Source: a virus. From it: a stretch of DNA of 31,382 bases. A program made the translations under genes and the position numbers. Numbering within the stretch: position 1 is the stretch's first letter; each line of letters begins with the position of its first letter. The notes beneath the pieces were generated by a model. It had not been told where the DNA came from, did not search any database, and was given only the letters and a program-made list of their open reading frames with translations. The stretch lies in the IMG/VR virus record IMGVR_UViG_3300030108_005477, positions 1-31,382 of that record. One strand, written 5' to 3'. Of this stretch, positions 6,564 through 30,222 are shown piece after piece.

Positions 6564-8034
6564 GGCCTCTTTCAAAGACTTTGATATACTCAGTAACGCT
6601 GATCAAGCAGAGGCCTTAGCTCTCCTTCAAAAATACGACCAATTAGAAAAACAAGAAAGTTGTCAGGCAGACTTCCTTGCATTCGTCAAAAGCCAGTGGC
6701 CTGACTTTGTTCAGGGCCGACACCACAAGATAATCGGACAAAAATTCAACGATATTGCACGAGGGAAACTGAAGCGTCTCATCGTTTGTTTGCCACCCAG
6801 GCACACAAAATCTGAGTTTGCGAGCACTTTTTTCCCGGCATGGATGATGGGACTCCGATCGAATCTGAAAATCATACAAACTACTCACACTGCAGAGCTT
6901 GCGGTGCGTTTCGGACGCAGGGTTAGGAACATAATCGATTCCTCTGAGTATCAAGAAGTGTTCCCGGACTTGAAGCTTGAGGCTGATAATAAAAGCGCCG
7001 GCCGCTGGACGACAAACGGTGGGGGTGAAAGTTTCTATGCAGGAGTTGGCGGGGCTATCACCGGTCGAGGTGCAGACCTGCTCATAATTGATGACCCGGT
7101 GTCTGAGCAAGACGCTTTAAGCCCGACTGCTATGGATGGTGTTTATGAGTGGTACACCTCTGGCCCTCGTCAAAGATTGCAGCCGGGAGGCATCATCGTA
7201 ATCGTGATGACTCGTTGGTCGACCAAAGATCTTGTAGGCAAGGTGCTGAAAAAGCAGGGCGATGAGCATGCGGACCAGTGGGACGTGATCGAATTTCCAG
7301 CGATAATGCCGGAGTCGAATACGCCGCTTTGGCCTGAGTTTTGGAAAAAAGAGGAGTTGCTTTCAGTCAAAGCCTCTTTGCCCGTTTCAAAATGGAACGC
7401 GCAGTGGATGCAAAACCCAACTGCAGAAGAAGGGTCCATCGTGAAGCGCGAATGGTGGAGACACTGGGAGCGGGAAGATGTGCCAGCTTATTCCTACGTA
7501 ATCCAATCTTATGACACAGCATTTTCGAAAAAAGAAACTGCGGACTACAGTGCAATCACAACCTGGGCAGTTTTTCAGCACAATGATATCGAGCAAATAA
7601 TTCTCTTAGACGCAAAGCGCGTGCGTTTGGACTTTCCAGAACTCAAAAGGCTAGCATGGGAGGAGTACAAATATTGGGAGCCAGACTGCGTTCTGATAGA
7701 GGCAAAGGCCAGTGGGACGCCATTGACGCAGGAATTACGCCGGATGGGGATCCCAGTCACTGCATATACACCGTCTCGCGGGCAAGATAAGATCGCTCGA
7801 ATGAATAGCGTCGCACCGATATTCGAAAGTGGTATGGTCTGGGCGCCTGAAGCTCCGTTTGCAGAAGAAGTAATCGAAGAAATGGCTAGTTTCCCTTACG
7901 GGGACCATGACGATTATTGCGACTCGGCAACGATGGCGCTCATGAGATTTCGGCAAGGTGGTTTTTTGAACCTTGAAGGCGACTACGTAGAAGAAATCAC
8001 ACCGCTTCGCAGGGATAGGAAGGTTTATTACTGA
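6556..8034 (+). CDS. terL: Terminase large subunit
   Basis: This is the packaging motor ATPase and nuclease, which pumps DNA through the portal into the prohead and cuts it. The N-terminal ATPase has a variant Walker A at about residues 79-86 (LPPRHTKS), Walker B at 175-181 (LLIIDDP) and a coupling motif TRW (219-221). The C-terminal RNase-H-like nuclease shows acidic residues Asp320 (SYDTAF), Glu382 (LIEAKAS) and Asp456 (HDDYCDS). The length of 492 residues is normal. ATG 6556 was chosen over GTG 6541 because it has ggga upstream and gives a natural N-terminus. No small terminase subunit is recognisable nearby. The stop overlaps the portal start (TGATG). Confidence 0.96.
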   Translation: MSEASFKDFDILSNADQAEALALLQKYDQLEKQESCQADFLAFVKSQWPDFVQGRHHKIIGQKFNDIARGKLKRLIVCLPPRHTKSEFASTFFPAWMMGLRSNLKIIQTTHTAELAVRFGRRVRNIIDSSEYQEVFPDLKLEADNKSAGRWTTNGGGESFYAGVGGAITGRGADLLIIDDPVSEQDALSPTAMDGVYEWYTSGPRQRLQPGGIIVIVMTRWSTKDLVGKVLKKQGDEHADQWDVIEFPAIMPESNTPLWPEFWKKEELLSVKASLPVSKWNAQWMQNPTAEEGSIVKREWWRHWEREDVPAYSYVIQSYDTAFSKKETADYSAITTWAVFQHNDIEQIILLDAKRVRLDFPELKRLAWEEYKYWEPDCVLIEAKASGTPLTQELRRMGIPVTAYTPSRGQDKIARMNSVAPIFESGMVWAPEAPFAEEVIEEMASFPYGDHDDYCDSATMALMRFRQGGFLNLEGDYVEEITPLRRDRKVYY

Positions 8035-10538
8035 TGATCGAACGAAGAGACCAGCAGGCAGGCACTGCAGAAGACCCGGATATTGTAAACTTAGGCAACC
8101 AAGTAGAAATTATCCCTGAGCCCTCCAGGTCAGACCAAATACGCGAAGCTGCTCAAATATTGGTCGTCGAAGAAGACCTCTTACTAGACGAAGACGAGGA
8201 AGCTTTACCGGTCGAAGCCGGAGACTTCAATGAGAATCTTGCAGAAAAATTAGACCGGGGCGAGCTCGGCTCCCTGGCAAGCGACGTGCTTGCGTCCATA
8301 AAATCAGATAAAGACAGTCGCAGTGAATGGGAAAAAACATACACCGACGGTTTGAAATATCTGGGTATGAAGTTTGATGAATCGAGGTCCAATCCTTTCC
8401 AGGGCTCTACAGGTGTCATTCACCCGATTTTGGCCGAAGCGGTTACGCAGTTCCAGGCTCAAGCGTACAAGGAAATGCTGCCACCTAGAGGCCCGGTGAA
8501 GACGGAGATAGTTGGGGCTCGCACGCCAGAAACCGAGATGCAAGCGGAAAGGGTTCAGGAGTTCATGAATTACTATGTCATGAACGTCATGCCTGAGTTT
8601 GACCCTGAGCTCGATATGCTGCTTTTTTATCTTCCCTTGGCCGGCTCAGCCTTCAAAAAAATATATTTCGATGCGGCCTTGAACCGAGCAATGAGCAAAT
8701 TTGTAGAGCCGCAGGATTTAATCGTGCCTTATGAGGCGACTGATCTTTTCAGTGCAGAAAGAGTAACTCACGTCCTTTCGATGTCGAAAAACGAAATACG
8801 AAAGCAACAACTAGTAGGGTTTTACGCTGACATTGAGCTCAAAGGAGCCTCTTATCACGTCTCGCGAGATGAGATAGAGGAAGAGATTGATGAAATCGAA
8901 GGCCAAAGCCCGGGGTATCAAGAGGATCGTGACAGAACAGTCTATGAGATCCACACAATTTTGGATTTGCCCGGTTATGAGGACACAGGTGCAGACGGCC
9001 AGCCGACCGGTCTGAAGTTGCCCTACATCGTGACAATAGACGAACCAAGTCAGCAAGTTTTGGCGATACGCAGAAACTATTTAGAGGATGATCCCCTCAA
9101 ACAAAAAATTAACTACTTTGTGCAATATAAGTTTTTGCCGGGACTCGGATTCTATGGTTTAGGCCTATCTCACATGATTGGTGGTTTGGCGAAAGCAAGC
9201 ACCAGTATTCTGAGGCAGTTGATTGACGCCGGGACTCTCGCCAACCTGCCTGCAGGTTTTAAAGCGAGAGGTATGCGGATCCGAGACGAAGATGACCCGC
9301 TTCAACCGGGTGAGTTTCGAGATATTGACACGACTGGCGCGTCTTTAAGGGAGAACCTTATACCCCTGCCAATTAAAGAACCTAGCAATGTGCTTATGCA
9401 GCTGCTTGGATTGTTGGTCGAATCAGGCAAACGATTTGCTTCGATTGCGGACATGAATGTTGGAGATATGAACGCCGCCATGCCCGTAGGCACGACGGTC
9501 GCGCTCTTGGAGCGGGGGACCAAGGTCATGTCGGCGATCCATAAGCGCCTGCATTATTCGCAAAAAGTAGAGTTTCAGTTGTTGGCCAAGGTCTTCGCCG
9601 ATTACCTGCCACCAGTCTATCCCTATCAGACAGGTTCCGGTCCTCAGGAGGTAAAAGCGCAAGACTTTGACGGGCGAGTAGACGTTATTCCCGTCAGTGA
9701 TCCAAATATTTTCAGTCAGTCTCAACGGATCACTATGGCCCAAGAGCTGCTGACGATGGTTCAGTCTAACCCAGAGATTCATGGGCCTAGCGGTATTTAT
9801 GAAGCGTACCGGCGAATGTATGCGGCTCTGGGCGTGGATAACATAGACTCACTGCTGCAACCGCCGCAAGAGCCACCACCGCCGATGCCGATCGATGCGG
9901 GTTTAGAAAACAGTGGTCTGATGATGGGCCAGCCCGCCCTGGCGTTTGAGCAACAAAACCACCAGGCTCATATAGACGCGCACAGGTCGCTCTTCCTCAC
10001 CGAAAATGTCAAAACTAACCCAGCTTTGCAGGGCGTGATCATTGCTCACATGATGCAACATTTGCAGTTTTTGTCTGCGCAATTGGCCCAAGAGCAGATT
10101 CCTGCAGAGGTCACTCAACAAATGACGGAAATATCCTCTGCGATGCAACAAGGCGCGATTCCGCCCGCGGAGGGTCAGGCCGTAATGTCTGAGCTGCAAA
10201 TGATTGCGGAGCAGTTTTCTGCACCAATTCTGGCTCAGCTGACTCAAGAATTGTTTTTGAGTATCGGGCAGGGCTCAGAGGAGGACCCTTTAGTTGCGAT
10301 ACGTCAACAAGAGCTGGATCTACGAGCACAAGAGCTGCAGTCGGAGCAGAATCAGTTCGCCGCGAAAGAGCAGCAGCGCCGTAACGAGAAAACCTTGGAA
10401 GCCGAAATTGCTAAACAGCGTATAGAAACGCAAAAAGAGGTTGCCGATGATAAGCTAGACCTAGCTTTGCGGCGACTTCAACAGCAGGCTGATCTTAAAA
10501 TTACAGAATTGAACGCAAAGTTCGGAGGGCAACGATGA
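8034..10538 (+). CDS. Portal protein, P22-like long type
   Basis: This 834-residue protein forms the ring at one head vertex through which DNA enters and leaves. The order directly after terL, the length and the sequence character (RSEWEKTYTDGLKYLGMKFD, NPFQGSTGVIHPILAEAV, AGSAFKKIYFD) fit the large P22-type portals. Residues about 1-70 are acidic. The central region is mixed alpha/beta and includes DMNVGDMNAAMPVGTTVALL, likely part of the stem and crown. From about residue 690 the chain is Gln/Ala/Glu-rich and helical (RQQELDLRAQELQSEQNQF), matching the extended barrel of P22-like portals. I infer a podovirus-type head-tail junction from this and the gp10-like tail gene. Confidence 0.9.
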   Translation: MIERRDQQAGTAEDPDIVNLGNQVEIIPEPSRSDQIREAAQILVVEEDLLLDEDEEALPVEAGDFNENLAEKLDRGELGSLASDVLASIKSDKDSRSEWEKTYTDGLKYLGMKFDESRSNPFQGSTGVIHPILAEAVTQFQAQAYKEMLPPRGPVKTEIVGARTPETEMQAERVQEFMNYYVMNVMPEFDPELDMLLFYLPLAGSAFKKIYFDAALNRAMSKFVEPQDLIVPYEATDLFSAERVTHVLSMSKNEIRKQQLVGFYADIELKGASYHVSRDEIEEEIDEIEGQSPGYQEDRDRTVYEIHTILDLPGYEDTGADGQPTGLKLPYIVTIDEPSQQVLAIRRNYLEDDPLKQKINYFVQYKFLPGLGFYGLGLSHMIGGLAKASTSILRQLIDAGTLANLPAGFKARGMRIRDEDDPLQPGEFRDIDTTGASLRENLIPLPIKEPSNVLMQLLGLLVESGKRFASIADMNVGDMNAAMPVGTTVALLERGTKVMSAIHKRLHYSQKVEFQLLAKVFADYLPPVYPYQTGSGPQEVKAQDFDGRVDVIPVSDPNIFSQSQRITMAQELLTMVQSNPEIHGPSGIYEAYRRMYAALGVDNIDSLLQPPQEPPPPMPIDAGLENSGLMMGQPALAFEQQNHQAHIDAHRSLFLTENVKTNPALQGVIIAHMMQHLQFLSAQLAQEQIPAEVTQQMTEISSAMQQGAIPPAEGQAVMSELQMIAEQFSAPILAQLTQELFLSIGQGSEEDPLVAIRQQELDLRAQELQSEQNQFAAKEQQRRNEKTLEAEIAKQRIETQKEVADDKLDLALRRLQQQADLKITELNAKFGGQR

Positions 10539-10832: not shown

Positions 10833-11042
10833 ATGCCTTTGAAGAAAGGGAAGAGTAACAAAGTGATAGGAGCAAACATTCGCATGTTGAAAAAAGAAGG
10901 GAAGCCGCAAAAACAAGCTGTGGCGATAGCGATGAAAACAGCGAAAAGCATGAAAGACGGTGGCGCCGTACGCAGGGTGAAAAAAACCGTGAGAGGCGGA
11001 GGAGCAGCTACCAAGGGCTTGCAGTTTTATGAGATCGACTGA
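10833..11042 (+). CDS. Small basic protein with KGKSNKVIGANI start and RGGGA C-terminal motif
   Basis: This 69-residue protein begins MPLKKGKSNKVIGANIRMLK, followed by KEGKPQKQAVAIAMKTA, a start that I recall from many phage small proteins of unknown function. The C-terminal part reads MKDGGAVRRVKKTVRGGGAA then TKGLQFYEID. The K-x-G-G-x-V ... R-G-x-G-A pattern is shared with the proteins at 18085 and 18449. It is strongly basic, so nucleic acid contact is plausible. A clear aaaggaag ribosome site precedes the ATG. It overlaps the next start by one base (TGATG). Confidence 0.7.
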   Translation: MPLKKGKSNKVIGANIRMLKKEGKPQKQAVAIAMKTAKSMKDGGAVRRVKKTVRGGGAATKGLQFYEID

Positions 11043-13679: not shown

Positions 13680-14597
13680 ATGGCAATTTCTCGCGCACAA
13701 TTAGCGAAAGAACTCGAGCCAGGCCTGAACTCCTTGTTCGGCATGAGCTACGATTCTTACGACAGAGAGTATGAAGAAATATACGCGATTGAAGACAGCC
13801 AGAGAGCCTTCGAAGAAGAGGTGCTCATAACTGGATTCGGCTCAGCTCCAGTGAAAACTGAGGGTCAGGGCGTAGTCTTCGATTCGGCTTCAGAGTCTTT
13901 TTCAGCTCGATATACCCACGATACGATATCGTTAGCTTTTGCACTTACCGAGGAGGCCGTCGAGGATAACCTCTACGACTCGTTGGGCAAGAGGTATGTA
14001 AAAGCACTGGCTCGATCGATGGCTAACACCAAGGAGGTGAAGGGAAGCGATGTGCTCAACAACGCTTTTTCCTCGAGCTTTACAGGTGGCGATGGCGTCT
14101 CGCTGATCAACACTGCCCACCCATTGGCAGGTGGTGGCACCGCAGCGAATCGTGCTACGACTATGGCGGATCTAAACGAGACCTCCTTAGAGGATTCGTT
14201 GATCGACATATCCACCTTTACGGACGATCGTGGACTGACAATCTCAGTCCAAGCAACGAAACTGGTGATTCCACCGCAGCTCGTTTTTGTCGCTGACCGC
14301 ATCTTGAACTCAACTCTGCGTTCGGGAACGGCCGATAACGATATAAATGCGTTGAGGAATACGGGGGTTTTGCCACAGGGCTACACCGTGAATCATTATC
14401 TGAATGATCCCGATGCATACTTCATCTTGACCAGCGTCACAGAGGCTGGTGAGGGCCTGAAGATGTTCCAGCGTTCGCCGATGGAAACTAGCATGGAACC
14501 TGACTTTACAACAGGTAACATCAGGTATAAGGCGCGCGAACGATATTCATTCGGGTTCTCCGACTGGAGGGGCATTTACGGGTCCCAAGGGGCTTAA
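13680..14597 (+). CDS. Major capsid protein (Mu gpT-like, HK97 fold)
   Basis: This 305-residue protein is the main head shell subunit. Features that fit the Mu gpT-type major head family are FEEEVLITGFGSAPVKTEGQ near residues 44-63, the central TAHPLAGGGTAANR (145-158), PPQLVFVADRILNSTLRSG, the ending VRAR-like KARERYSFGFSDWRGIYGSQ and an overall length of about 300. The gene has an aggag ribosome site and is followed within 20 bases by a strong terminator, as expected for the most highly expressed late gene. No protease gene is recognised beside it. The N-terminal MAISRAQ is repeated in the protein at 28645. Confidence 0.9.
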   Translation: MAISRAQLAKELEPGLNSLFGMSYDSYDREYEEIYAIEDSQRAFEEEVLITGFGSAPVKTEGQGVVFDSASESFSARYTHDTISLAFALTEEAVEDNLYDSLGKRYVKALARSMANTKEVKGSDVLNNAFSSSFTGGDGVSLINTAHPLAGGGTAANRATTMADLNETSLEDSLIDISTFTDDRGLTISVQATKLVIPPQLVFVADRILNSTLRSGTADNDINALRNTGVLPQGYTVNHYLNDPDAYFILTSVTEAGEGLKMFQRSPMETSMEPDFTTGNIRYKARERYSFGFSDWRGIYGSQGA

Positions 14598-18084: not shown

Positions 18085-18456
18085 ATGGCAAGCGAAGTAC
18101 CAGACAATGTAGCTAACCCGTCTCTCTACAGACAGGCTAAGAGAAAAGCAAAAGCCAAATTCGACGTCTTCCCGTCAGCTTATGCCTCGGGTTACCTCGT
18201 CCAAGAATATAAGCGCCTTGGGGGCAAGTACAAAGGCGCTATCGGCGGAGAGGTCACGCTTGACCCTGTGAAAAGCGACCTCGACAAAGACGGCAAGCTT
18301 AGCGCCTATGAGCGCAAGCGCGGGACAGCGATTGCAAAAAGCATGGCCCGGCAGGCCAAACCCATGAAAAACGGCGGCACGGTCATGGTGCAGAGCCGTG
18401 GGTGTGGAGCTATTATGCCAGAAAAACAAAAAATGACCCGAGTACCCCGTGGGTAA
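18085..18456 (+). CDS. Basic protein with EF-hand loop and RGCGA C-terminal tag
   Basis: This 123-residue protein has three parts. Residues about 11-50 form a conserved-looking block (NPSLYRQAKRKAKAKFDVFP, YLVQEYKRLGGKY). Residues 65-76 (DLDKDGKLSAYE) fit an EF-hand calcium loop with Asp1, Asp3, Asp5, Gly6 and Glu12. Residues 95-123 are a tail, KNGGTVMVQSRGCGAIMPEK then QKMTRVPRG. The tail is nearly identical to that of the next gene. It has a gaggt ribosome site. The gene overlaps the next start by 8 bases. It is probably a virion or assembly protein; the molecular role is unknown. Confidence 0.7.
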   Translation: MASEVPDNVANPSLYRQAKRKAKAKFDVFPSAYASGYLVQEYKRLGGKYKGAIGGEVTLDPVKSDLDKDGKLSAYERKRGTAIAKSMARQAKPMKNGGTVMVQSRGCGAIMPEKQKMTRVPRG

Positions 18457-18847
18457 ACCACAAGGCGGCCTGAAAAAGTGGTTCGGCAAAGGGAAAGGTG
18501 GCGATTGGGTCGATATCGGCGCTCCGAAAAAAGACGGTAAGTTTCAGTCTTGTGGACGCGCTCAAGCAAAAGGGACTAAGCGTTCTTACCCAAAGTGTGT
18601 GCCGAGGGCGGAAGCCAAGCAGATGACCGAGGCGGAGCGCAAAAGCGCAGTGAGACGCAAAAGAGCCAAACCGCAGGGTGTGGGTGGTAAACCGACAAAC
18701 GTCAGAACTTATACCTCGCCAGCATCAGCGAAAGGTCGACGGATCGTGCGCAAAGCGAATGGCGGTGATGTTACGATGGTTCAAGCCCGCGGGTGTGGTG
18801 CGATCATGCCCAACAAACAAAAAATGACGAGAGTCCCACGTTCCTAG
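18449..18847 (+). CDS. Basic protein with Cys motif and RGCGA C-terminal tag
   Basis: This 132-residue protein starts at GTG 18449, inside the end of the preceding gene. Residues about 1-85 have a conserved-looking core: PQGGLKKWFGKGKGGDWVDI, GAPKKDGKFQSCGRAQAKGT, KRSYPKCVPRAEAKQMTEAE and KRAKPQGVGGKPTNVRTYTS. The tail, residues about 103-132 (NGGDVTMVQARGCGAIMPNK, QKMTRVPRS), repeats that of the preceding protein. The core looks like a small conserved family of marine phages. There is one Cys in CGR, one in KCVP and one in RGCGA. It is strongly basic. Function unknown. Confidence 0.7.
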   Translation: MGKPQGGLKKWFGKGKGGDWVDIGAPKKDGKFQSCGRAQAKGTKRSYPKCVPRAEAKQMTEAERKSAVRRKRAKPQGVGGKPTNVRTYTSPASAKGRRIVRKANGGDVTMVQARGCGAIMPNKQKMTRVPRS

Positions 18848-18859
18848 TAGGAGGACAAA

Positions 18860-19153
18860 ATGGCCGGACACAAAATGACAAATAAAGGCATGGCGATGAA
18901 GAAGCCTGGCAAGATGCAAAAAGGCGGCGCCATGAAAAAGAAAAAAATCAAAATGCCAGGCGGCATGAAAAAAGGTGGGACCATGAAAAAAGTGGGACCC
19001 GGCAAAATGAACAAGGGCGGAACGATGAAAAAGCCGCCAACCAAAATGGACAAAGGCGGCACGATCAAGAAGCCTGGAGGTATGAAGAAAGGCGGCTCTG
19101 TCAAAATGATGAAGAAGCCCTCCAACAAAAATAGCGGCCTTTTCGGCCGGTAG
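18860..19153 (+). CDS. Lys-Gly-Met repeat protein (KGG repeats)
   Basis: This 97-residue low-complexity protein holds 29 Lys, 21 Gly and 15 Met with a single acidic residue (Asp64). Five K-G-G-[ATS]-[MIV]-K units start at residues 21, 38, 52, 65 and 77, spaced 17, 14, 13 and 12 residues apart. It has a strong taggagg ribosome site (from 18848), which points to abundant translation. The extreme charge suggests binding to DNA or to an acidic protein, like a small nucleoid-type protein packed with the genome. That is inference. It ends overlapping the next GTG by one base. Confidence 0.75.
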   Translation: MAGHKMTNKGMAMKKPGKMQKGGAMKKKKIKMPGGMKKGGTMKKVGPGKMNKGGTMKKPPTKMDKGGTIKKPGGMKKGGSVKMMKKPSNKNSGLFGR

Positions 19154-20526: not shown

Positions 20527-20850
20527 ATGGCTTTCTCTAGCAACAAGAACGCTTATGGGATTTGCGATATCACGGGGTTTCGATATCGCTTGCGTGATAT
20601 GAAAAAGACCTGGAACGGTCTATTGGTGGGCCCGGATCAATGGTCACCGAAGCACCCCCAGCTGATGAAAAAGCCTACTCCGATTGATCCGCAAGCGCTG
20701 AAAGAAGCCAGGCCAGACCCCTCTTCCGATGGCGAGGATAATAAATTTTTCAGTGTTTACACTAACGTCGGAAGTGGTAAATTAGGTACAACTTTGCAAA
20801 CTTTTGCAATTACAGCCGGCGTTGGAACCGTGGAGATCACCATCACATGA
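20527..20850 (+). CDS. Small conserved protein with a degenerate Cys-ribbon-like region
   Basis: This 107-residue protein has NAYGICDITGFRYRLRDMKK, TWNGLLVGPDQWSPKHPQL, then TPIDPQALKEARPDP. The first part resembles a known phage small-protein type in which CDRCGF ... C ... C would form a zinc ribbon. Here only one Cys (about 13) is left, so zinc binding is not expected. The C-terminal end is beta-like (TLQTFAITAGVGTVEITIT). It sits between two adaptor genes and overlaps the next start as ATGA. A tail or adaptor accessory protein is likely; the mechanism is unknown. Confidence 0.65.
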   Translation: MAFSSNKNAYGICDITGFRYRLRDMKKTWNGLLVGPDQWSPKHPQLMKKPTPIDPQALKEARPDPSSDGEDNKFFSVYTNVGSGKLGTTLQTFAITAGVGTVEITIT

Positions 20851-21497
20851 GCTTTACCCTAGCGACTCTTAAGTCCACCGTGCAGGATTACTTGCAGGTC
20901 AATGAAACGACCTTCAACAATAATTTGAACACGTTCATCAAAGAGTCTGAAAGTCGTATATTTAAAATGGTCCAGCTGCCCTCGCAACGCAAAAATGTTC
21001 AGGGGACGGTTACCACTAGCAACCGTTTTTTAGCGACTCCCAGTGATTTTTTTGCTCCGTTCAGCTTGGCTGTAATAGATAGTAACAACAAATACCACTA
21101 TTTGGATTTCAAACACCCAAGTTTTTTGAAAGCTTTCAGTCCGACGACCACAACAACAGGTAGACCTCGGTACTACAGTTTGTTCGATGATACAGCCTTT
21201 GAACTAGCGCCCGTGCCAAATAGCGGCTACACCGCAGAGCTACACTATCTCCACAAACCGGCGTCTTTGACGTCAGGCAGCGACTCTGGAACAACTATTT
21301 TGTCTGATGAGCATCCCGACGCCCTCTTTTATGGCACCCTGGTAGAAGCGGCTGTTTTTTTGAAAGAAGCTCCTGACGTCATAGGGAATTTTGAGGGGCG
21401 GTTCAAAGAGGCGATTGCTAGGATGAAGAACCAAAGCGAGGGCCGTGAGAGTCGAGACGAATATCGTTACGACTTGCTGCGCATTGGTATCAGTTAG
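20847..21497 (+). CDS. Second tail adaptor-type protein (T7 gp11/P22 gp4-like organisation)
   Basis: This 216-residue protein begins with a helical block (FTLATLKSTVQDYLQVNETT, FNNNLNTFIKESESRIFKMV). A beta core follows (NRFLATPSDFFAPFSLAVID, NNKYHYLDFKHPSFLK, RPRYYSLFDDTAFELAPVPN, YTAELHYLHKP). It closes with helices (DALFYGTLVEAAVFLKEAPD, FEGRFKEAIARMKNQSEG). This helix-strand-helix order is that of short-tail gatekeeper/adaptor proteins. Two adaptor-like genes in one cluster may give a two-layer junction. The assignment is by pattern only. Confidence 0.7.
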   Translation: MSFTLATLKSTVQDYLQVNETTFNNNLNTFIKESESRIFKMVQLPSQRKNVQGTVTTSNRFLATPSDFFAPFSLAVIDSNNKYHYLDFKHPSFLKAFSPTTTTTGRPRYYSLFDDTAFELAPVPNSGYTAELHYLHKPASLTSGSDSGTTILSDEHPDALFYGTLVEAAVFLKEAPDVIGNFEGRFKEAIARMKNQSEGRESRDEYRYDLLRIGIS

Positions 21498-22939: not shown

Positions 22940-24838
22940 ATGGCATTACAACTTTTAGAGTTTCAAGCAGGTGTCAATAAAGAAAGCACCGACTATGCCG
23001 CTAAGGGCGGTTGGGTAGACGCAAATCTAGTCCGGTTCCGTAAAGGTCGAGCGGAAAAAGTCGGCGGCTGGCTAAAGTCTGGGACCAGCTCTTACTTGGG
23101 CACAGGCCGAGCCCTTCATAGCTGGATCTCTTTGGGCGGCACCCGATTTTTGGGTGTAGGCACAACCTTCAAATACTACATCGAAGAAGGAGAGTCATAT
23201 AATGACGTCACTCCTATCCGATCCACCACTAGCGCTGGCGATGTAACATTTTCTGCAAGCGATGGGAGCAGCACGGTTACAGTTACTGATACGGCGCACG
23301 GTGCCGTGAATAACGATTTTGTCACTTTTTCTAGCGCTACTAGTCTCGGGGGTAATATCACTGCCGCGGTTCTCAACCAAGAGTACCAAATCGACTTGGT
23401 GACTGGAGCAAACACCTATGAAATTACAGCCAAGGACACCTCAGGTTCGACTGTCACGGCGAACAGCAGTGATTCTGGAAACGGCGGTAGTAGCACTGTC
23501 GGGGTTTACCAAATCAATGTCGGGCTCGATACGTTTGTAGCATCAAGTGGTTGGGGGTTAGGGACTTGGGGCGCCGGTGGCTGGGGCAGCGCTTCTTCTA
23601 TCAGTTCGATCAACCAATTACGCATCTGGACTCATGATAACTACGGCGAAAACTTAATAATCAACCCGAGAGGAGCCGGCATTTTCCGCTGGGTCGAAAA
23701 CAACGGCGTTGGAGTCCGCGCTTTAGAATTATCTGGTGTAAGTGGTGCAAGCGGCGTGCCCACCGTAGGGCTTCAGGTAATCACCTCTGAGACCGATCGC
23801 CATTTGATTGTTCTGGGATCTGACCCTCTCTCCAGTGGTAGTCGTACAGGCGTCGTAGACCCAATGCTAGTTGCTTTCAGCGACTCTGAAAACGAACTAG
23901 ATTTTTTGCCCACTAGTACTAACAGCGCTGGGTCTGTACGGCTCAGCTCGGGGTCCTTCATCGTAGGTGGCATCAAGAGCCGCCAAGAAATTTTGATCTG
24001 GACAGACACGTCTCTGTACAGCATGAATTTCATCGGACCACCGCTCACTTTTGCAGTAAATTTAGTCAACGAGGGCAGTGGTCTCATTGGACCAAAAGCC
24101 GCAGCTAACGCCCCAAACGGTGTTTATTTCGCCAGTAAAAACTCGTTCTATTTTTACAACGGCTCCGTTCAGAAACTCCCATGCTCAGTTCAAGAGTACG
24201 TGTTTAACGATTTAGATCTGGGGCAAGCTTTCAAATGCCACATGGGAGTAAACAGCGAATACGGAGAGTTTTGGTTTTTCTATCCGAGTAAAACAGACGG
24301 CACTGGCGAAATCAGCCGATATGTCATCTATTCTTATGAGGAGAACCATTGGTCAATCGGCAGTCTGACTCGTTTTGCTTGGCTTGACGCAGGTATAGAG
24401 GATCTCCCGTTGGCTACTGCGGTAAGCAACAGTGAGCAATGCGTTTTCGAACATGAAATCGGCTACGACGATAATGCTGATCCGATGACCAATGTTTTTA
24501 TTGAGAGTGGGGACCTGGACATCGCGAATGGCGAAGCGTTCAGCTTGGTAAGCAAAGTAATTCCTGACATGAAGTTTGTTCAGGACGCCGGGCTGACAAA
24601 TACCCCCGCAATGAACATCGTTTTGAAACGTCGTAATTTTCCAGGAGAAACGCTGACGACAGATTCCACAACACAGGTGACATCTACCAGCACGTTTACG
24701 AATGTGCGCAGCAGAGCTCGGCAGCTAGTTTTCCGATTTGAATCTGACGATGACAATACCACAGACAATCAATTAGGTTACAAGTGGCGTTTGGGTAGCA
24801 CTCGTATTGATATAGCTCCGAGTGGTCGCAGAGGATGA
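22940..24838 (+). CDS. Tail nozzle/stabilisation protein, P22 gp10-like
   Basis: This 632-residue protein is the probable tail hub that closes the portal-adaptor channel. Residues 1-80 carry the typical start (QAGVNKESTDYAAKGGWVDA, NLVRFRKGRAEKVGGW). Residues about 100-190 look like an inserted small beta domain (TVTVTDTAHGAVNNDFVTFS, LNQEYQIDLVTGANTYEITA), similar to the FCCH-type beta domains often annotated in phage proteins. The rest has a beta-propeller pattern (GENLIINPRGAGIFRW, DRHLIVLGSDP, NGVYFASKNSFYFYNGSVQK, YVIYSYEENHWSIG). It has the size and position of P22 gp10 and T7 gp12 counterparts. It overlaps the next gene as ATGA. Confidence 0.82.
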   Translation: MALQLLEFQAGVNKESTDYAAKGGWVDANLVRFRKGRAEKVGGWLKSGTSSYLGTGRALHSWISLGGTRFLGVGTTFKYYIEEGESYNDVTPIRSTTSAGDVTFSASDGSSTVTVTDTAHGAVNNDFVTFSSATSLGGNITAAVLNQEYQIDLVTGANTYEITAKDTSGSTVTANSSDSGNGGSSTVGVYQINVGLDTFVASSGWGLGTWGAGGWGSASSISSINQLRIWTHDNYGENLIINPRGAGIFRWVENNGVGVRALELSGVSGASGVPTVGLQVITSETDRHLIVLGSDPLSSGSRTGVVDPMLVAFSDSENELDFLPTSTNSAGSVRLSSGSFIVGGIKSRQEILIWTDTSLYSMNFIGPPLTFAVNLVNEGSGLIGPKAAANAPNGVYFASKNSFYFYNGSVQKLPCSVQEYVFNDLDLGQAFKCHMGVNSEYGEFWFFYPSKTDGTGEISRYVIYSYEENHWSIGSLTRFAWLDAGIEDLPLATAVSNSEQCVFEHEIGYDDNADPMTNVFIESGDLDIANGEAFSLVSKVIPDMKFVQDAGLTNTPAMNIVLKRRNFPGETLTTDSTTQVTSTSTFTNVRSRARQLVFRFESDDDNTTDNQLGYKWRLGSTRIDIAPSGRRG

Positions 24839-25146
24839 GCAAGCTTTTACCGACGCGACTGCCGTTAGCGCAGGGCGAAACGGTAAATGCAGACGTGTTC
24901 AATCGCATGGTTCGAGTGCTAGAGCTGAACCTGGGGGCGGTGGATATCAACATCAGCCCGCATTTCAACGCAACAGAAATCAGTGAGCTACAATTTGCGA
25001 CGGGTGCGGTAATATTCAATACTACGACACAGATTCATCAGGCTTTCGACGGGACACGTTTGCGGGACCTGTACTCGCACCAGACATACCCGACCGGCTT
25101 GGCAATGACTAGCGCTGTAGGCGCCGTTACGGTGACGATATCATGA
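24835..25146 (+). CDS. Small unknown tail-cluster protein
   Basis: This 103-residue protein starts and ends with ATGA overlaps to both neighbours. It begins LLPTRLPLAQGETVNADVFN, contains RMVRVLELNLGAVDINISP, and ends FDGTRLRDLYSHQTYPTGLA then AVGAVTVTIS. The segment GAVIFNTTTQIHQAFDG resembles the N-termini of fibre or fibre-attachment proteins. It sits directly after the nozzle gene. A small tail or assembly component is likely; no function is known to me. Confidence 0.65.
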   Translation: MSKLLPTRLPLAQGETVNADVFNRMVRVLELNLGAVDINISPHFNATEISELQFATGAVIFNTTTQIHQAFDGTRLRDLYSHQTYPTGLAMTSAVGAVTVTIS

Positions 25147-26834
25147 ACAAAATGCTCCAGGATAGAATCGACGCGTTGATGGGCATGGGTGCCGTTTCGC
25201 CTATGCAAATGCAAAGCGGCGGCGAAGTAGACATGACGGACATGATGATGTCCGACCCGGTCCTCGCGGGGCCCGCACCGGAGGCAAGTAACGCAGATTT
25301 AGAAGCGGCAATCAACGAATTGCTCAAAGCGCGAGACACGGCGATGGACCCGGCCGAGGCCGAGAAAGCCGGTCAAATGGCAGAGTCTTTACAGGTCAAA
25401 TCACAAGCTCCGATGTCCGAGCTTGCAATGCAGCTGGCCGCACAAGGCAGGGGTGAAGACACCACACTTGCTCATTTGAGGCCGGGTGAAGTTATTCTGC
25501 CGCCCGAAATGTTTGACGACGCGACCTTTGAACAAGCAGTCGAAGCCAGATTCGAAGATCTGGATTTGGATCCCGAGCGATATGTAGTGGGGCTAGGGAT
25601 TGCCAGCTTGAATCCCTCGACAGGTTTAGAAGAGTTCGGTTGGTTCAAAAAGACCTTCAAAAGCCTGAAAAAGGTTGTCAAAAAGGTTGCGCCTGTAGCT
25701 ATGTTTATACCTGGTATCGGCACGGCTCTGGGTGCGGCACTCGGCGGTATTGGCGGATTAGCGGGGGCTGCTTTGGCTAAAGTGCCTATCTTGTCTGAGG
25801 CAGTTAGCGGTATTGGTGCCGCGGTAAAAGGTCTCGGCAGTCTAGGCATTCCCGGGTTGTCTCCGGCAGCACAGGGGGCTATCCAAGCCGGTAAGAGCGG
25901 TGTGTTGAGCACCATTGGTGGTGCTTTGAAAAACCCGCTTGCTGGAGGTCTCCTGGGTGGAAAAGGATCTACTTACGGTGGCATAACCGGTCAAGAGGGC
26001 AGCTCAGATTTTTTCCGGAAATTTTTGGATAAATTGGCAAGTACGGGTCCACAACAGGAAAAAGCCGTATCTACAGCAAGAGAATCAGGAGCCTCTGATA
26101 AAGAGATTTACGAGGAAGTTCAAAAGCAAAACCCAGGGCTTGTCGAACGTTTTGCCGCGACTTTCCTTGGTGGCGGAGCTGGAGGCGGTTTCGGAGCGCG
26201 AGATATAGCCTCATTAGGAGCCGCAGGCGTTCTAGGTAAACTTGCATACGACGCGGCAAAGGACCGCAGAGGCGTGCCGCTGACGCCCCTTACACAGATG
26301 GACGCAGCTGGCCGTTACAACATCGAAGCTGAAATCGCTCGACGAATGGGTAAAGAAGCGCCAAACCCTGTTGAATTTGGATTATTGCCGCAAGGAACGC
26401 TGCCGACTTTGAGCGGGGGTAGGCCAACACCTACGCCGAGGGGAGAACCACAGCAGACAGTAATGGTCGATGGTCAGCCGGTTACTCAAACGGTGAAGAT
26501 CAACGAAGATGACATGATCATGATGAGATATGGCGGCCCAGTGATGGCCTTCGCAGAAGGTGGCAACGTCGCCATGCAAGATTTCGAGCGGATGGACGGC
26601 AAGATCGAAGGTCCTGGCACTGAGCGTAGCGACGACATCCCAGCAATGCTCAGTGACGGAGAATTCGTTATGACGGGGCAAGCTGTCCGAGGCGCTGGGG
26701 CGTTCGACATGGCAAAAGGCGCTGGGGGTATTATTACTTTAACGCCCAACGGTGAAGAAAGCCGTGAGCGAGGAACGAAGCTCATGTACGACATGATGGA
26801 TCTATTCAAAGATTTCGCGCAGCTGAGGGCATAA
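25143..26834 (+). CDS. Putative internal virion/DNA-ejection protein with membrane-active region
   Basis: This is a 563-residue protein. An acidic, Met-rich N-terminus is followed by the motif AHLRPGEVILPPEMF (110-124). Residues about 164-183 are a basic amphipathic helix (EFGWFKKTFKSLKKVVKKVA). Residues 184-250 are a Gly/Ala-rich hydrophobic stretch (IPGIGTALGAALGGIGGLAG). The C-terminal motif RSDDIPAMLSDGEFVMTGQA (495-514) is common in phage tail-measure and ejection proteins. A basic helix beside a membrane-inserting stretch suits a channel-forming ejection protein that crosses the host envelope. Location in the head interior is inferred. It starts with an ATGA overlap. Confidence 0.65.
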   Translation: MNKMLQDRIDALMGMGAVSPMQMQSGGEVDMTDMMMSDPVLAGPAPEASNADLEAAINELLKARDTAMDPAEAEKAGQMAESLQVKSQAPMSELAMQLAAQGRGEDTTLAHLRPGEVILPPEMFDDATFEQAVEARFEDLDLDPERYVVGLGIASLNPSTGLEEFGWFKKTFKSLKKVVKKVAPVAMFIPGIGTALGAALGGIGGLAGAALAKVPILSEAVSGIGAAVKGLGSLGIPGLSPAAQGAIQAGKSGVLSTIGGALKNPLAGGLLGGKGSTYGGITGQEGSSDFFRKFLDKLASTGPQQEKAVSTARESGASDKEIYEEVQKQNPGLVERFAATFLGGGAGGGFGARDIASLGAAGVLGKLAYDAAKDRRGVPLTPLTQMDAAGRYNIEAEIARRMGKEAPNPVEFGLLPQGTLPTLSGGRPTPTPRGEPQQTVMVDGQPVTQTVKINEDDMIMMRYGGPVMAFAEGGNVAMQDFERMDGKIEGPGTERSDDIPAMLSDGEFVMTGQAVRGAGAFDMAKGAGGIITLTPNGEESRERGTKLMYDMMDLFKDFAQLRA

Positions 26835-26836
26835 CG

Positions 26837-28645
26837 ATGGCCGAGACAGAGTTCCCGTTTGTTGAGTCCGTACAAAGATCAGACCGTCAGTTAGATCCCA
26901 TCACTCAACAATTGTTGTTCGGCCTCGATGGCCAGGGTGGGTTTATCCCTGGAGCCTTCCAGGCGGCAGAACGTACGTTCTTCGATGAAGAGGGCAGACC
27001 GATCGTCATCGGCCAAGAAATTGCAGGACTCAGCCCCGATCAAATTCGAGCAGCTCAGTTAGCGCGTCAGTCAATCGGTGTGCAAGACCCATTTATTGAG
27101 GAAGCGGTTAGGCAAGGTACAGCCGGCATTGGCGCGCTAGAAGCGGGTTTGACAGACGAGGCGATTGCACAAGCTCGCGCCTTGCAAGCAATACAAGAAG
27201 GCTCTCGGTTTGCCTTAGATCAAAGAGACCGAGGGTTGTTAGACGCGTTAGCAGGTACCGAGGAGCAACGCGCACGGGCAATCACTGCAGAAGAAAGACT
27301 GCGAGGCGATTTAGCTGACCTTGCTGGGTTTCAAACAGGCGCTACTCGACAATTCATAGATCAGCTAGGTGAAAGAGAACGTCTCGGACGGACGGCAGCC
27401 GATCAATTCGGTATGGATCTAGGTAGGGCCCGTCAGGTTGGCCGCAGAACTTTTGATGAATTTGGTAGGGATATTACCGACGCTGTTGGATTAGGAGCGA
27501 TAAGCACAGAGGAATTATCTCGAGGCTTGAGGGAGTCTGAAGAACTGCTTCGCGGCACCACCGGCGATTTTGACGCAACGGCTGCAACGCAGCGGTTTTT
27601 TGATCCCTTTGAGGAGCAAGTGGTTCAACAAACCGTAGACGACGCGTTGGAGCGTCTCGCGCAGGCGGACCAGGCGCAAACTGCTCGAGACATACAAACA
27701 GGCGGAGAGTCTGCGTTTGGCTCTCGTGCGCGTTTACAGGCGTCTGAGCGAGCAGAATCATTAGGCAGGGGTCTTGCACAAGAACTAGCTGGAATCCGCT
27801 CTGCGGGCTTCCAGAGAGCCCAGCAGACCGCAATCAGTGAAGACGAAAGGGCGCGACAAGCGGCCAGGGGAGCAGCTTCAGGTTTAGCGTCTCTCGGCGG
27901 CCAAAGGTTCGGTGCTCGATCTGGGTTAGCAGGACAACTGTCGTCGGCCGCTCAACAAAGGTTGGGTGCAGGCACCGGGTTTGGCAATTTGATTCAACAG
28001 ACAGCAGCTCAACAGCTCGCAAGCCAACAACAATTAGGTCAACAGATGGGGCAAACGGCCGCTCAGGGTCTAGGCGCCCAACAGGCTTTAGCTGGTCAAC
28101 TGGGGACCGCAGCACAACAAAGATTCGCAGCCGGCACCGGGTTGGGACAGACTTTAGGACAAACCGGTCAACAAGCAGCTGCGGCTCGATCAGCTGCAGC
28201 GCAACAAGGGTTAGGCGTTGCAGGGGCTCTCGCCGGCCAGTTCGGCCAAACGGGGGCAACGCAAGCCGCCGCGGGCAGACAGCTGCAGCAGGCAAGACAA
28301 GGGTTAGGAGGCTTCCTTACCGGCTTAGGACAGCAAGCGCAAGCAGCAAGTGCTGCAGACGTTGGATTGTTATCGGGCATCGGACAACAAGCCCAACAAC
28401 AACGACAAAGAGAGTTGGATGCTCAGCGTGCAGCGCTTCTTCAAGCTCAACAAGCTCCCCTCGCGCAGTATCAAGCGTTAGCGCCGTTCGTAGGCATGGT
28501 TCCCCAAGGTTTCTCTCAGACCCAAACGACGTTCGGTCAGCCAGCTAGCGCCCTCCAAGCAGGTTTAGGCACCGGCTTGAGCACTTTGGGGGCTCTTGGA
28601 AATTTTTACGGTCAACCGCAAAGACAAACGGCAGCGACTAGCTGA
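26837..28645 (+). CDS. Ala/Gly/Gln-rich internal virion/ejection protein
   Basis: This is a 602-residue protein. Residues about 1-340 are largely helical with a conserved-looking block around 254-305 (FFDPFEEQVVQQTVDDALER, then IQTGGESAFGSRARLQASE). Residues about 350-560 are low-complexity Ala/Gly/Gln, with a 54-residue repeat (AAQQRLGAGTGFGNLIQQT recurs as AAQQRFAAGTGLGQTLGQT, 162 bases apart). No enzyme motif is visible. Such helical, Gln/Ala-rich large proteins next to the nozzle and other big late genes are typical of short-tail ejection proteins. It starts 2 bases after the previous stop and overlaps the next ATG by one base. Confidence 0.65.
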   Translation: MAETEFPFVESVQRSDRQLDPITQQLLFGLDGQGGFIPGAFQAAERTFFDEEGRPIVIGQEIAGLSPDQIRAAQLARQSIGVQDPFIEEAVRQGTAGIGALEAGLTDEAIAQARALQAIQEGSRFALDQRDRGLLDALAGTEEQRARAITAEERLRGDLADLAGFQTGATRQFIDQLGERERLGRTAADQFGMDLGRARQVGRRTFDEFGRDITDAVGLGAISTEELSRGLRESEELLRGTTGDFDATAATQRFFDPFEEQVVQQTVDDALERLAQADQAQTARDIQTGGESAFGSRARLQASERAESLGRGLAQELAGIRSAGFQRAQQTAISEDERARQAARGAASGLASLGGQRFGARSGLAGQLSSAAQQRLGAGTGFGNLIQQTAAQQLASQQQLGQQMGQTAAQGLGAQQALAGQLGTAAQQRFAAGTGLGQTLGQTGQQAAAARSAAAQQGLGVAGALAGQFGQTGATQAAAGRQLQQARQGLGGFLTGLGQQAQAASAADVGLLSGIGQQAQQQRQRELDAQRAALLQAQQAPLAQYQALAPFVGMVPQGFSQTQTTFGQPASALQAGLGTGLSTLGALGNFYGQPQRQTAATS

Positions 28646-30222
28646 TGGCGATTTCTAGAGCGCAAATGGAAAAGCAGGTGAAAGGTTTCGCGGACGCGGG
28701 TATTGCATCACTTGATCCTTTCGAAGAGTTTGGCGCTGGCACAGGGTTACAACCTTTGAGGTTGGACGAACAGAAACAACAGCCACCAGCTCCAACGAGC
28801 CAGTTGTCATTCTTCAGCACTCCATCTCAAGAAAAAATTTCTGAATACGCGAATGTGCTACGTAATCTGACAGGGAGAGATAGAAGAACTCAAAGACAAA
28901 AGCTTTTCGACCTGGCAAGTACGGTTGGTCAGACCATGCTGACAGCCGATCCCAGAGCCGGTGCGTTCCGCACGTTGGGTTTGGGTTTTGCACAGTTCAG
29001 TGACGCGGAGAGAAAGCGGCGTCGAGAACAAGAACAAGAAGACAGGGCAATCGCTTTGAAAGCGTTTGAACTGGCCAAAGCAGACGAAGATAAGTCCGCA
29101 TCTCTCATGAATGAATACCGCATTGCTCGGGCAAAGCGTATAGCAGAGGCGAGATACAAGCAGTATGTCGTAAAAAACCCCAACGGTATTACTGTGCGAA
29201 ATGAGCGCATACCTGCCGGAGAAACAGTCTTTTTGACGCAGTATGAACTTCCAGGTTACCTCCAAGACGTGCAGGAACAGCTCGAGGGGCAAGAGGTATC
29301 ACCGGTCGCAGATTTCGGACAGGCGGTTTACATGAGTCCTGACGAAGCCAGAAAGCGTTTTGAGCTGGTAGCGCCGGATTTGAAGCGCCTCAAGCCAGAC
29401 GAATTCAACAAGGTGGTAGAAAAGTTTTCAACCGACGATGAAAAATTGCAGGGCAAGTCCGTCATTGTCGGCCAGTCTTTTACTGATTTCAGCGTTCTGT
29501 ATGACGATGCCGGCAACCCAATTACGATCATTGCGAAACCAAATAAGGATTACGCAAAGGTGCCTATGGCCGGTTATCGAGAGGCATCGGAAAAATCCTT
29601 GCAGGAAGAGGCGCAAAATTTACGTCAGCTGCAGTCTAGCGTCATACCCGATTTGAGGACGGCTTTGGCGCTGCTCTTGGACGGGAAAGCTGAGACAGGC
29701 CCCTTTCAGGGTCGTATAGCTAATTTGAAATTTATTTTGGGCGACGCTTTCGGGGTTGACGTCGAGGGCATGGAAGACCTCGAGGTAATTTTGTCGATTG
29801 CGAACCGGTTGGCTCCAACGTTACGTGTAGCCGGCTCTGGTTCGACCTCAGACATGGAGTTTCGCGCCATGTTGTCAGGCCTTATTTCAGCCGAAAAAAC
29901 GCCCAAGTCGAATTATTTGGCGGCCTACATGCTTATAAAGCGAGCGGACATTCAGGCCAAACAATTACAAATACTGCAAAGCATGCTTTACGACGAATCA
30001 GTGCGCAGCCCTGCGGAAATCACCGCGGCGATTCAAGAGGTCGATAATAGTCTTTTCGAGCAATACGAGGGCGACACAAACGATTCGGAAGAATTGCAGC
30101 GCTGGACCGATTCTTTACCGCGGGGCGCCATAATCAAAAACAATCCTTTGGATCCCCTCTACGTGGATAAGAGTGGAAATCCGATCACAGACGTCTACAT
30201 CATCAAAGGGATGGACTTCTAA
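28645..30222 (+). CDS. Large unknown, putative internal virion protein
   Basis: This is a 525-residue protein. It begins MAISRAQMEKQVKGFADAGI, echoing the capsid protein N-terminus. A charged coiled-coil region follows (about 110-175; ERKRRREQEQEDRAIALKAF). The middle has FLTQYELPGYLQDVQEQLEG and SVIVGQSFTDFSVLYDDAGN. Residues about 330-460 have SSVIPDLRTALALLLDGKAE, LRVAGSGSTSDMEFRAMLSG and YLAAYMLIKRADIQAKQLQI. I recall the SGSTSDMEF segment in marine phage late proteins. No catalytic motif is clear. Its neighbours suggest an ejection or core protein, but this is inference. Confidence 0.6.
   Translation: MAISRAQMEKQVKGFADAGIASLDPFEEFGAGTGLQPLRLDEQKQQPPAPTSQLSFFSTPSQEKISEYANVLRNLTGRDRRTQRQKLFDLASTVGQTMLTADPRAGAFRTLGLGFAQFSDAERKRRREQEQEDRAIALKAFELAKADEDKSASLMNEYRIARAKRIAEARYKQYVVKNPNGITVRNERIPAGETVFLTQYELPGYLQDVQEQLEGQEVSPVADFGQAVYMSPDEARKRFELVAPDLKRLKPDEFNKVVEKFSTDDEKLQGKSVIVGQSFTDFSVLYDDAGNPITIIAKPNKDYAKVPMAGYREASEKSLQEEAQNLRQLQSSVIPDLRTALALLLDGKAETGPFQGRIANLKFILGDAFGVDVEGMEDLEVILSIANRLAPTLRVAGSGSTSDMEFRAMLSGLISAEKTPKSNYLAAYMLIKRADIQAKQLQILQSMLYDESVRSPAEITAAIQEVDNSLFEQYEGDTNDSEELQRWTDSLPRGAIIKNNPLDPLYVDKSGNPITDVYIIKGMDF

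Follow-up and report, generated by a model that had tools for sequence, protein, structure and literature searches.

Why should two adjacent phage genes, whose products are otherwise unrelated, end in the same peptide? The question is raised by a pair of small genes in a 31.4-kb IMG/VR virus contig, which was analyzed over its full 31,382 nucleotides and is referred to here as the window. Both proteins end in RGCGAIMP-x-KQKMTRVPR, part of what we call the class I tag.

18085..18456, plus strand: gene 1, 123 aa; DUF5872/PSAY module at aa 11-50, variable linker and class I C-terminal tag
18449..18847, plus strand: gene 2, 132 aa, GTG start; WVDI-CGR-PKCVP module, linker and class I tag
18370..18453, plus strand: class I tag of gene 1, NGGTVMVQSRGCGAIMPEKQKMTRVPRG (codon comparison, tag profile, pLDDT about 55-70)
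18761..18844, plus strand: class I tag of gene 2, NGGDVTMVQARGCGAIMPNKQKMTRVPRS (codon comparison, low pLDDT)

Comparison of 18 tag codons between the two genes (18397-18450 against 18788-18841) reproduced the counts of the initial annotation exactly: 9 differ silently, 8 are identical, and 1 is a replacement, from GAA (Glu) to AAC (Asn). The common module is longer than first stated and reads NGG-x-V-MVQ-x-RGCGAIMP-x-KQKMTRVPR (about 18370-18453 and 18761-18844), a shared peptide of roughly 28 residues. Between the two window tags, pS was 0.73 and pN 0.048 (Nei-Gojobori). Silent sites are thus saturated, which rules out recent gene conversion and agrees with the earlier view that the tag is not a recent DNA copy. 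The same numbers bear on selection at the nucleotide level, for an overlapping start codon or an RNA signal, instead of on the peptide. An overlap of 8 nt does join the end of gene 1 to the beginning of gene 2; however, it is the amino acids that are conserved, with silent change at saturation, and the tag of gene 2 is the same although no such overlap exists there. The codon comparison refutes a nucleotide-level signal, and we consider this explanation exceedingly improbable.

Other genomes gave a similar picture. Among 25 distinct within-genome pairs of paralogous tags, pS was 0.775 and pN 0.092, and dN/dS of the tag among close orthologues was about 0.05 (0.056 for gene 1 and 0.052 for gene 2). 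This is far from one and lies within the range of the bodies (0.02 to 0.08), with 0.19 for the linker before the Gly-Gly, showing that the peptide is kept as strongly as the folded parts. Two further claims of the initial annotation, strong selection on the peptide and a lack of relationship between the bodies, are well founded. BLASTP found no similarity between the bodies, and a profile-profile comparison without the tag returned a probability of 0.1 (E 0.45). The full profiles of genes 1 and 2 matched over 29 tag columns only (probability 97.4, E 1.3e-11); this match is far beyond chance.

The shared tag recurs in hundreds of related contigs. A profile built from 113 distinct tags retrieved 390 distinct open reading frames in 527 loci, and the tag was C-terminal in 390 of 390. 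Scans with DNA patterns that did not select for position gave 377 distinct matches (276 + 101); all 375 complete ones reached a stop 17 to 22 codons after the R, and the other 2 were cut by a contig end. The refuting condition set by the initial annotation, a simple duplicated domain limited to these two genes, thus fails, and the tag is carried by many proteins. When the same pattern was run against 84,980 prokaryote species, it returned one match, on a phage contig, and as far as sampled the tag is restricted to viruses. Bacterial sorting signals (LPXTG, PEP-CTERM and similar) likewise are conserved C-terminal signals on unrelated proteins. Unlike them, the tag lacks any apparent transmembrane segment and occurs on phage contigs; since the sole match in a prokaryote genome also lay on a phage contig, we ruled out a sorting signal of the bacterial kind.

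At least 12 bodies unrelated by BLAST, acidic ones included, carry the class I tag. BLAST clustering alone merges the first three of those listed below via shared linkers, and these were separated by Pfam/PHROG matches and module signatures.

PSAY/DUF5872; WVDI and WVRIGTDG; DUF5824 (loci L162, L185, L234)
RPGLWANIHAKRKR (L162); NINKRKKAGTSR (L248, L419); SEKQRKYLHAN (L450, L511)
Three further small-protein groups (the L258, L275 and L312 groups), at least 2 of them acidic
Single cases: L226, L401, L406/L432, L417, L473, L506

Relatives of each of genes 1 and 2 number in the hundreds in IMG/VR. When loci were sampled by capsid-protein homology and not by tag, the PSAY gene, wherever present, ended in the class I tag or in a variant form (KGCG, AIDP, RGQGAVL). 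The bodies are present without the tag in HTVC027P and HTVC106P. Class I tags usually number one or two per contig; genomes of the window group have two, as does L162, where they sit on two bodies that both differ from those of the window. In searches of 50,697 phage records with tblastn, neither the 28-residue tag nor a class III tag (see below) gave a match, and a 33-residue variant of the tag matched 023Pt_psg01 only, which left no route from the tag to a cultured phage whose virion proteome is known.

The class I tag is a mobile C-terminal micro-domain of about 25 to 30 residues. A Gly-Gly hinge leads into R-G-C-G-[AK]-x-M; the basic segment K/R-x-K-x-T-K/R comes next, followed by a short tail. 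It also exists by itself, in a few microproteins of 33 to 34 aa that are little more than an RGCG tag.

L479:8252-8353: stand-alone tag, 33 aa, between two structural-block genes with one-base overlaps
L430:17-118: stand-alone tag, 33 aa
L403:1976-2131 and L440:4301-4423: stand-alone tags, 34 aa, starting with the major-capsid N-terminus MAITRAQLAK

The 34-aa protein of L403 and L440 comprises only the major-capsid N-terminus and the tag. Several other small proteins in related phages also begin with this N-terminus, which gave 127 N-terminal matches (mostly capsid proteins) and 0 internal ones in these phages. In the window, the MAISRAQ start is found on the major capsid protein (13680-13700) and on an unrelated 525-aa protein (28645-28665).

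The same bodies end in other peptides in other phages. In many relatives, the gene 2 body ends NSGLFGR (class II) or NMGLYGR. NSGLFGR also ends the MKKGG-repeat protein of the window, making it a second interchangeable C-terminal tag. Class III tags (RGxGAAxRG or RGAGIAxRGVRxxKM) are found on one window gene and about 25 other bodies. They occurred C-terminally 144 times against 4.9 expected from their internal frequency, though these counts lack independence, the phages sampled being related. Isolate HTVC023P has class III tags at the C-termini of two unrelated proteins, gp32 and the PSAY protein gp51. The occurrence of the same bodies with other C-terminal peptides (SGLFGR; RGxGAAxRG) indicates that the tags are swappable.

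18860..19153, plus strand: MKKGG-repeat (Lys/Met-Gly-Gly repeat) protein; C-terminus NSGLFGR, a class II tag
10833..11042, plus strand: phrog_2423 small protein; class III C-terminal tag KDGGAVRRVKKTVRGGGAATKGLQFYEID, the C-terminus VRGGGAATKGLQFYEID being from the large RGxGAAxRG class

Another exchangeable C-terminal module, SMV+xAQ+NYxGSYVxGDLGGVxVGN, is common to the WVDI protein of some phages (L204) and a separate gene in HTVC027P; the loci recorded for it are L204 (WVDI protein), L003:14484-14753 and L004:5965-6336. The linkers TSPASAKGRR and GGLxEATARLKxQGLK are likewise exchanged between bodies.

Homologues of the two bodies are found in modular proteins of other phages. Gene 1 matches DUF5872 (PF19197) at aa 11-50 with 32.8 bits (cut-off 27.5, E 1.1e-7), over model positions 3-46 of 116 only, and thus shares its N-terminal module only. 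Gene 2 matches phrog_23735 over positions 2-79 of 81, a full-length profile match (E 9e-23), and its aa 6-88 match an internal part (positions 113-195) of the 450-residue phrog_727. In cyanomyoviruses, PSAY/DUF5872 and WVDI modules are fused with DUF6321 (PF19846) in one protein, T4-GC119 of S-BM3 and relatives. The T4-GC119-type proteins examined lack the class I tag, whereas the window splits the modules into two tagged genes. The main text of PMC3037559 makes no virion call for T4-GC119. In the cyanophage S-SCSM1, S-SCSM1_29 has homologous PSAY, WV and DUF6321 modules, lacks the tag and is labelled “virion protein.” Mass spectrometry of CsCl-purified S-SCSM1 virions detected 45 phage proteins (PMC9602691). 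The phage record holds 48 “virion protein” labels against these 45 identifications, and for this reason we say that the S-SCSM1_29 label almost certainly, not certainly, reflects detection.

Such modularity could mean that the tag is a small shared domain, spread among modular small proteins by duplication and recombination, whose role is local and structural and has no bearing on targeting. The fusion of the bodies in cyanophages, the exchange of linkers and the existence of stand-alone forms are all in keeping with this. Ordinary domains, however, also occur internally, whereas hundreds of cases of the tag are strictly C-terminal, and the same body bears other classes of short C-terminal peptide instead. 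We therefore judge a plain domain to be improbable.

The setting of the tagged pair is a head/tail structural block, which runs from the portal, GroES-like and major capsid genes through the pair to virion structural proteins, and the gene settings of tagged relatives are similar.

8034..10538, plus strand: portal protein (PF23899 SU10_portal; phrog_1216 portal)
11227: GroES-like gene, in the structural block between portal and major capsid
13680..14597, plus strand: major capsid protein (PF25209 and PF10124; N-terminus MAISRAQ)
20847..21497, plus strand: virion structural protein (phrog_2941), downstream flank of the tagged pair
22940..24838, plus strand: virion structural protein (phrog_3287), downstream flank of the tagged pair

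The initial annotation suggested an address tag, for example one for the capsid or assembly complex, which is plausible. Of the functions considered, the most likely is that the tag serves to dock its small carrier proteins in the virion or procapsid; the docking step is one that we infer, and we hold it tentatively. Several lines of evidence favor it. The tag is strictly C-terminal, is under purifying selection, is carried by at least 12 unrelated bodies and is exchanged with other tag classes, and in monomer predictions it has little or no structure. In addition, the tagged genes lie between capsid and tail structural genes, here and in similar settings in relatives. Homologues of the bodies occur in the virion-labelled S-SCSM1_29, itself untagged, and small proteins share the major-capsid N-terminus, which in L403 and L440 is joined directly to the tag. 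The position of the genes also bears on a different idea, in which the tag acts soon after infection and sends its carriers to some part of the host, for example the ribosome, RNA polymerase, membrane or a protease. In its favor, proteins of host takeover are typically small and varied and are recognized through a short signal at the C-terminus, but the tagged genes are inside the head/tail block and not in an early region, and homologues of their bodies are virion labelled; host targeting is accordingly hard to credit.

Structure predictions provided a view of bodies and tags. In AlphaFold2 models, the gene 1 body forms helices at 12-25 and 32-44 (block mean pLDDT 86-89), and the gene 2 body reaches about 71-76 in its best blocks. 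As a monomer, the tag had a pLDDT of 55-70 in gene 1, and block means were mostly <50 in gene 2, where it is predicted to be disordered. This low confidence fits a peptide that would be flexible until bound. A fold search with the gene 1 model against the PDB gave no meaningful match, nor did profile searches with the two proteins and the tag reveal any relative of known structure.

A low-structure, basic, Arg-Gly-containing tail might also bind nucleic acid and keep the small proteins attached to the DNA or RNA of the phage, perhaps in genome compaction, with head location as a consequence. The window tags have a net charge of +4 and one stand-alone peptide reaches +16, which would suit such a tail, as would the Lys/Arg-rich PSAY and WVDI bodies, the best known of those that carry it. 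On the other hand, 14 diverse tags all have RGCG, the Met and the Thr but differ at several charged positions, charge alone needs no strict stop 17 to 22 codons from the R, and acidic bodies carry the tag too. Nucleic-acid binding is therefore unlikely in our view. The invariance of these residues while charge varies favors a specific binding site, and conservation of the Cys, Met and Thr hints at recognition by a specific pocket and not just by charge.

Marine phages fuse the tag to many unrelated small proteins from the head/tail block and sometimes make the tag alone. On the docking reading, the tag would stay flexible until it bound a single partner, common to all carriers, in the virion or procapsid under assembly, with the capsid lattice, scaffold, portal or packaged DNA as candidates. 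Any tag-bearing body would thereby be brought into or onto the particle during head assembly, and the tag would provide a docking signal comparable to capsid-targeting and cargo-loading peptides. Several observations weaken this reading. The virion evidence comes from the S-SCSM1 homologue, which has no tag, and searches gave no matching solved structure. Three more count in particular against a pure “address.” Stand-alone tags have no cargo. Most contigs have only one or two class I tags. Finally, the two tags of one genome showed no covariation beyond that of their bodies (partial Mantel, partial r 0.05, p 0.30), and thus coevolution with one receptor is not supported.

Two known systems offer parallels. 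The T4 capsid-targeting sequence (CTS) is N-terminal, takes internal head proteins into the prohead and is cleaved by the prohead protease. The likeness, if docking is right, is that of a short peptide on unrelated small proteins that brings them into the prohead. Several unrelated small proteins per phage carry a CTS, and the tag is similarly found on at least 12 bodies overall, with two per genome in the window group and L162. In contrast to the CTS, all class I tags are C-terminal and no cleavage is known for them. Encapsulin cargo-loading peptides are short, flexible, C-terminal, found on unrelated cargo and bound by an HK97-fold shell. The tag is likewise a short, flexible C-terminal peptide on unrelated proteins; however, it is longer and basic, and its putative shell is a phage capsid. 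No encapsulin shell gene lies beside the cargo, since the HK97-type gene of the window is the phage major capsid protein (Phage_capsid_4, Mu-like gpT), adjoining terminase and portal genes. The tag would thus work like a CTS or a cargo-loading peptide, if docking is right, and would belong to neither system, given that the CTS is N-terminal and no encapsulin is present.

A portable C-terminal tag of this kind is not described in the literature searched. Searches for the tag strings found no relevant paper, the three matches being for class III strings only and in unrelated nucleotide, species-list or other text; DUF5872 is named in one paper, which gives no function for it, and searches for pelagiphage virion proteomes found nothing relevant.

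Between their capsid and tail genes, marine phages encode many small “hypothetical” proteins. A portable connector at the C-terminus would account for many unrelated small proteins in this position and would allow virion-associated proteins to be predicted from sequence alone; if cargo loading is true, it would also serve as a packaging tag for a phage shell, one that is short and genetically simple. More speculatively, and with some doubt, the abundant marine podoviruses may have a small set of interchangeable plug-in connectors, C-terminal and perhaps N-terminal (MAISRAQ), that install swappable small proteins in the virion head, RGCGAxM being one connector that is able to exist as a free 33-aa peptide.

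Two other genes of the window gave matches to virion-related profiles. The small Cys/Arg protein at 15837-16142 matches phrog_7595 and, weakly, part of phrog_220, “minor head protein and DNA pilot” (E 9e-5), a hint that it may also belong to the virion. The 563-aa product of 25143-26834 contains “GG-hydrophobic” stretches and resembles several tape-measure profiles in their C-terminal parts, despite the portal being of the SU10 podovirus type.
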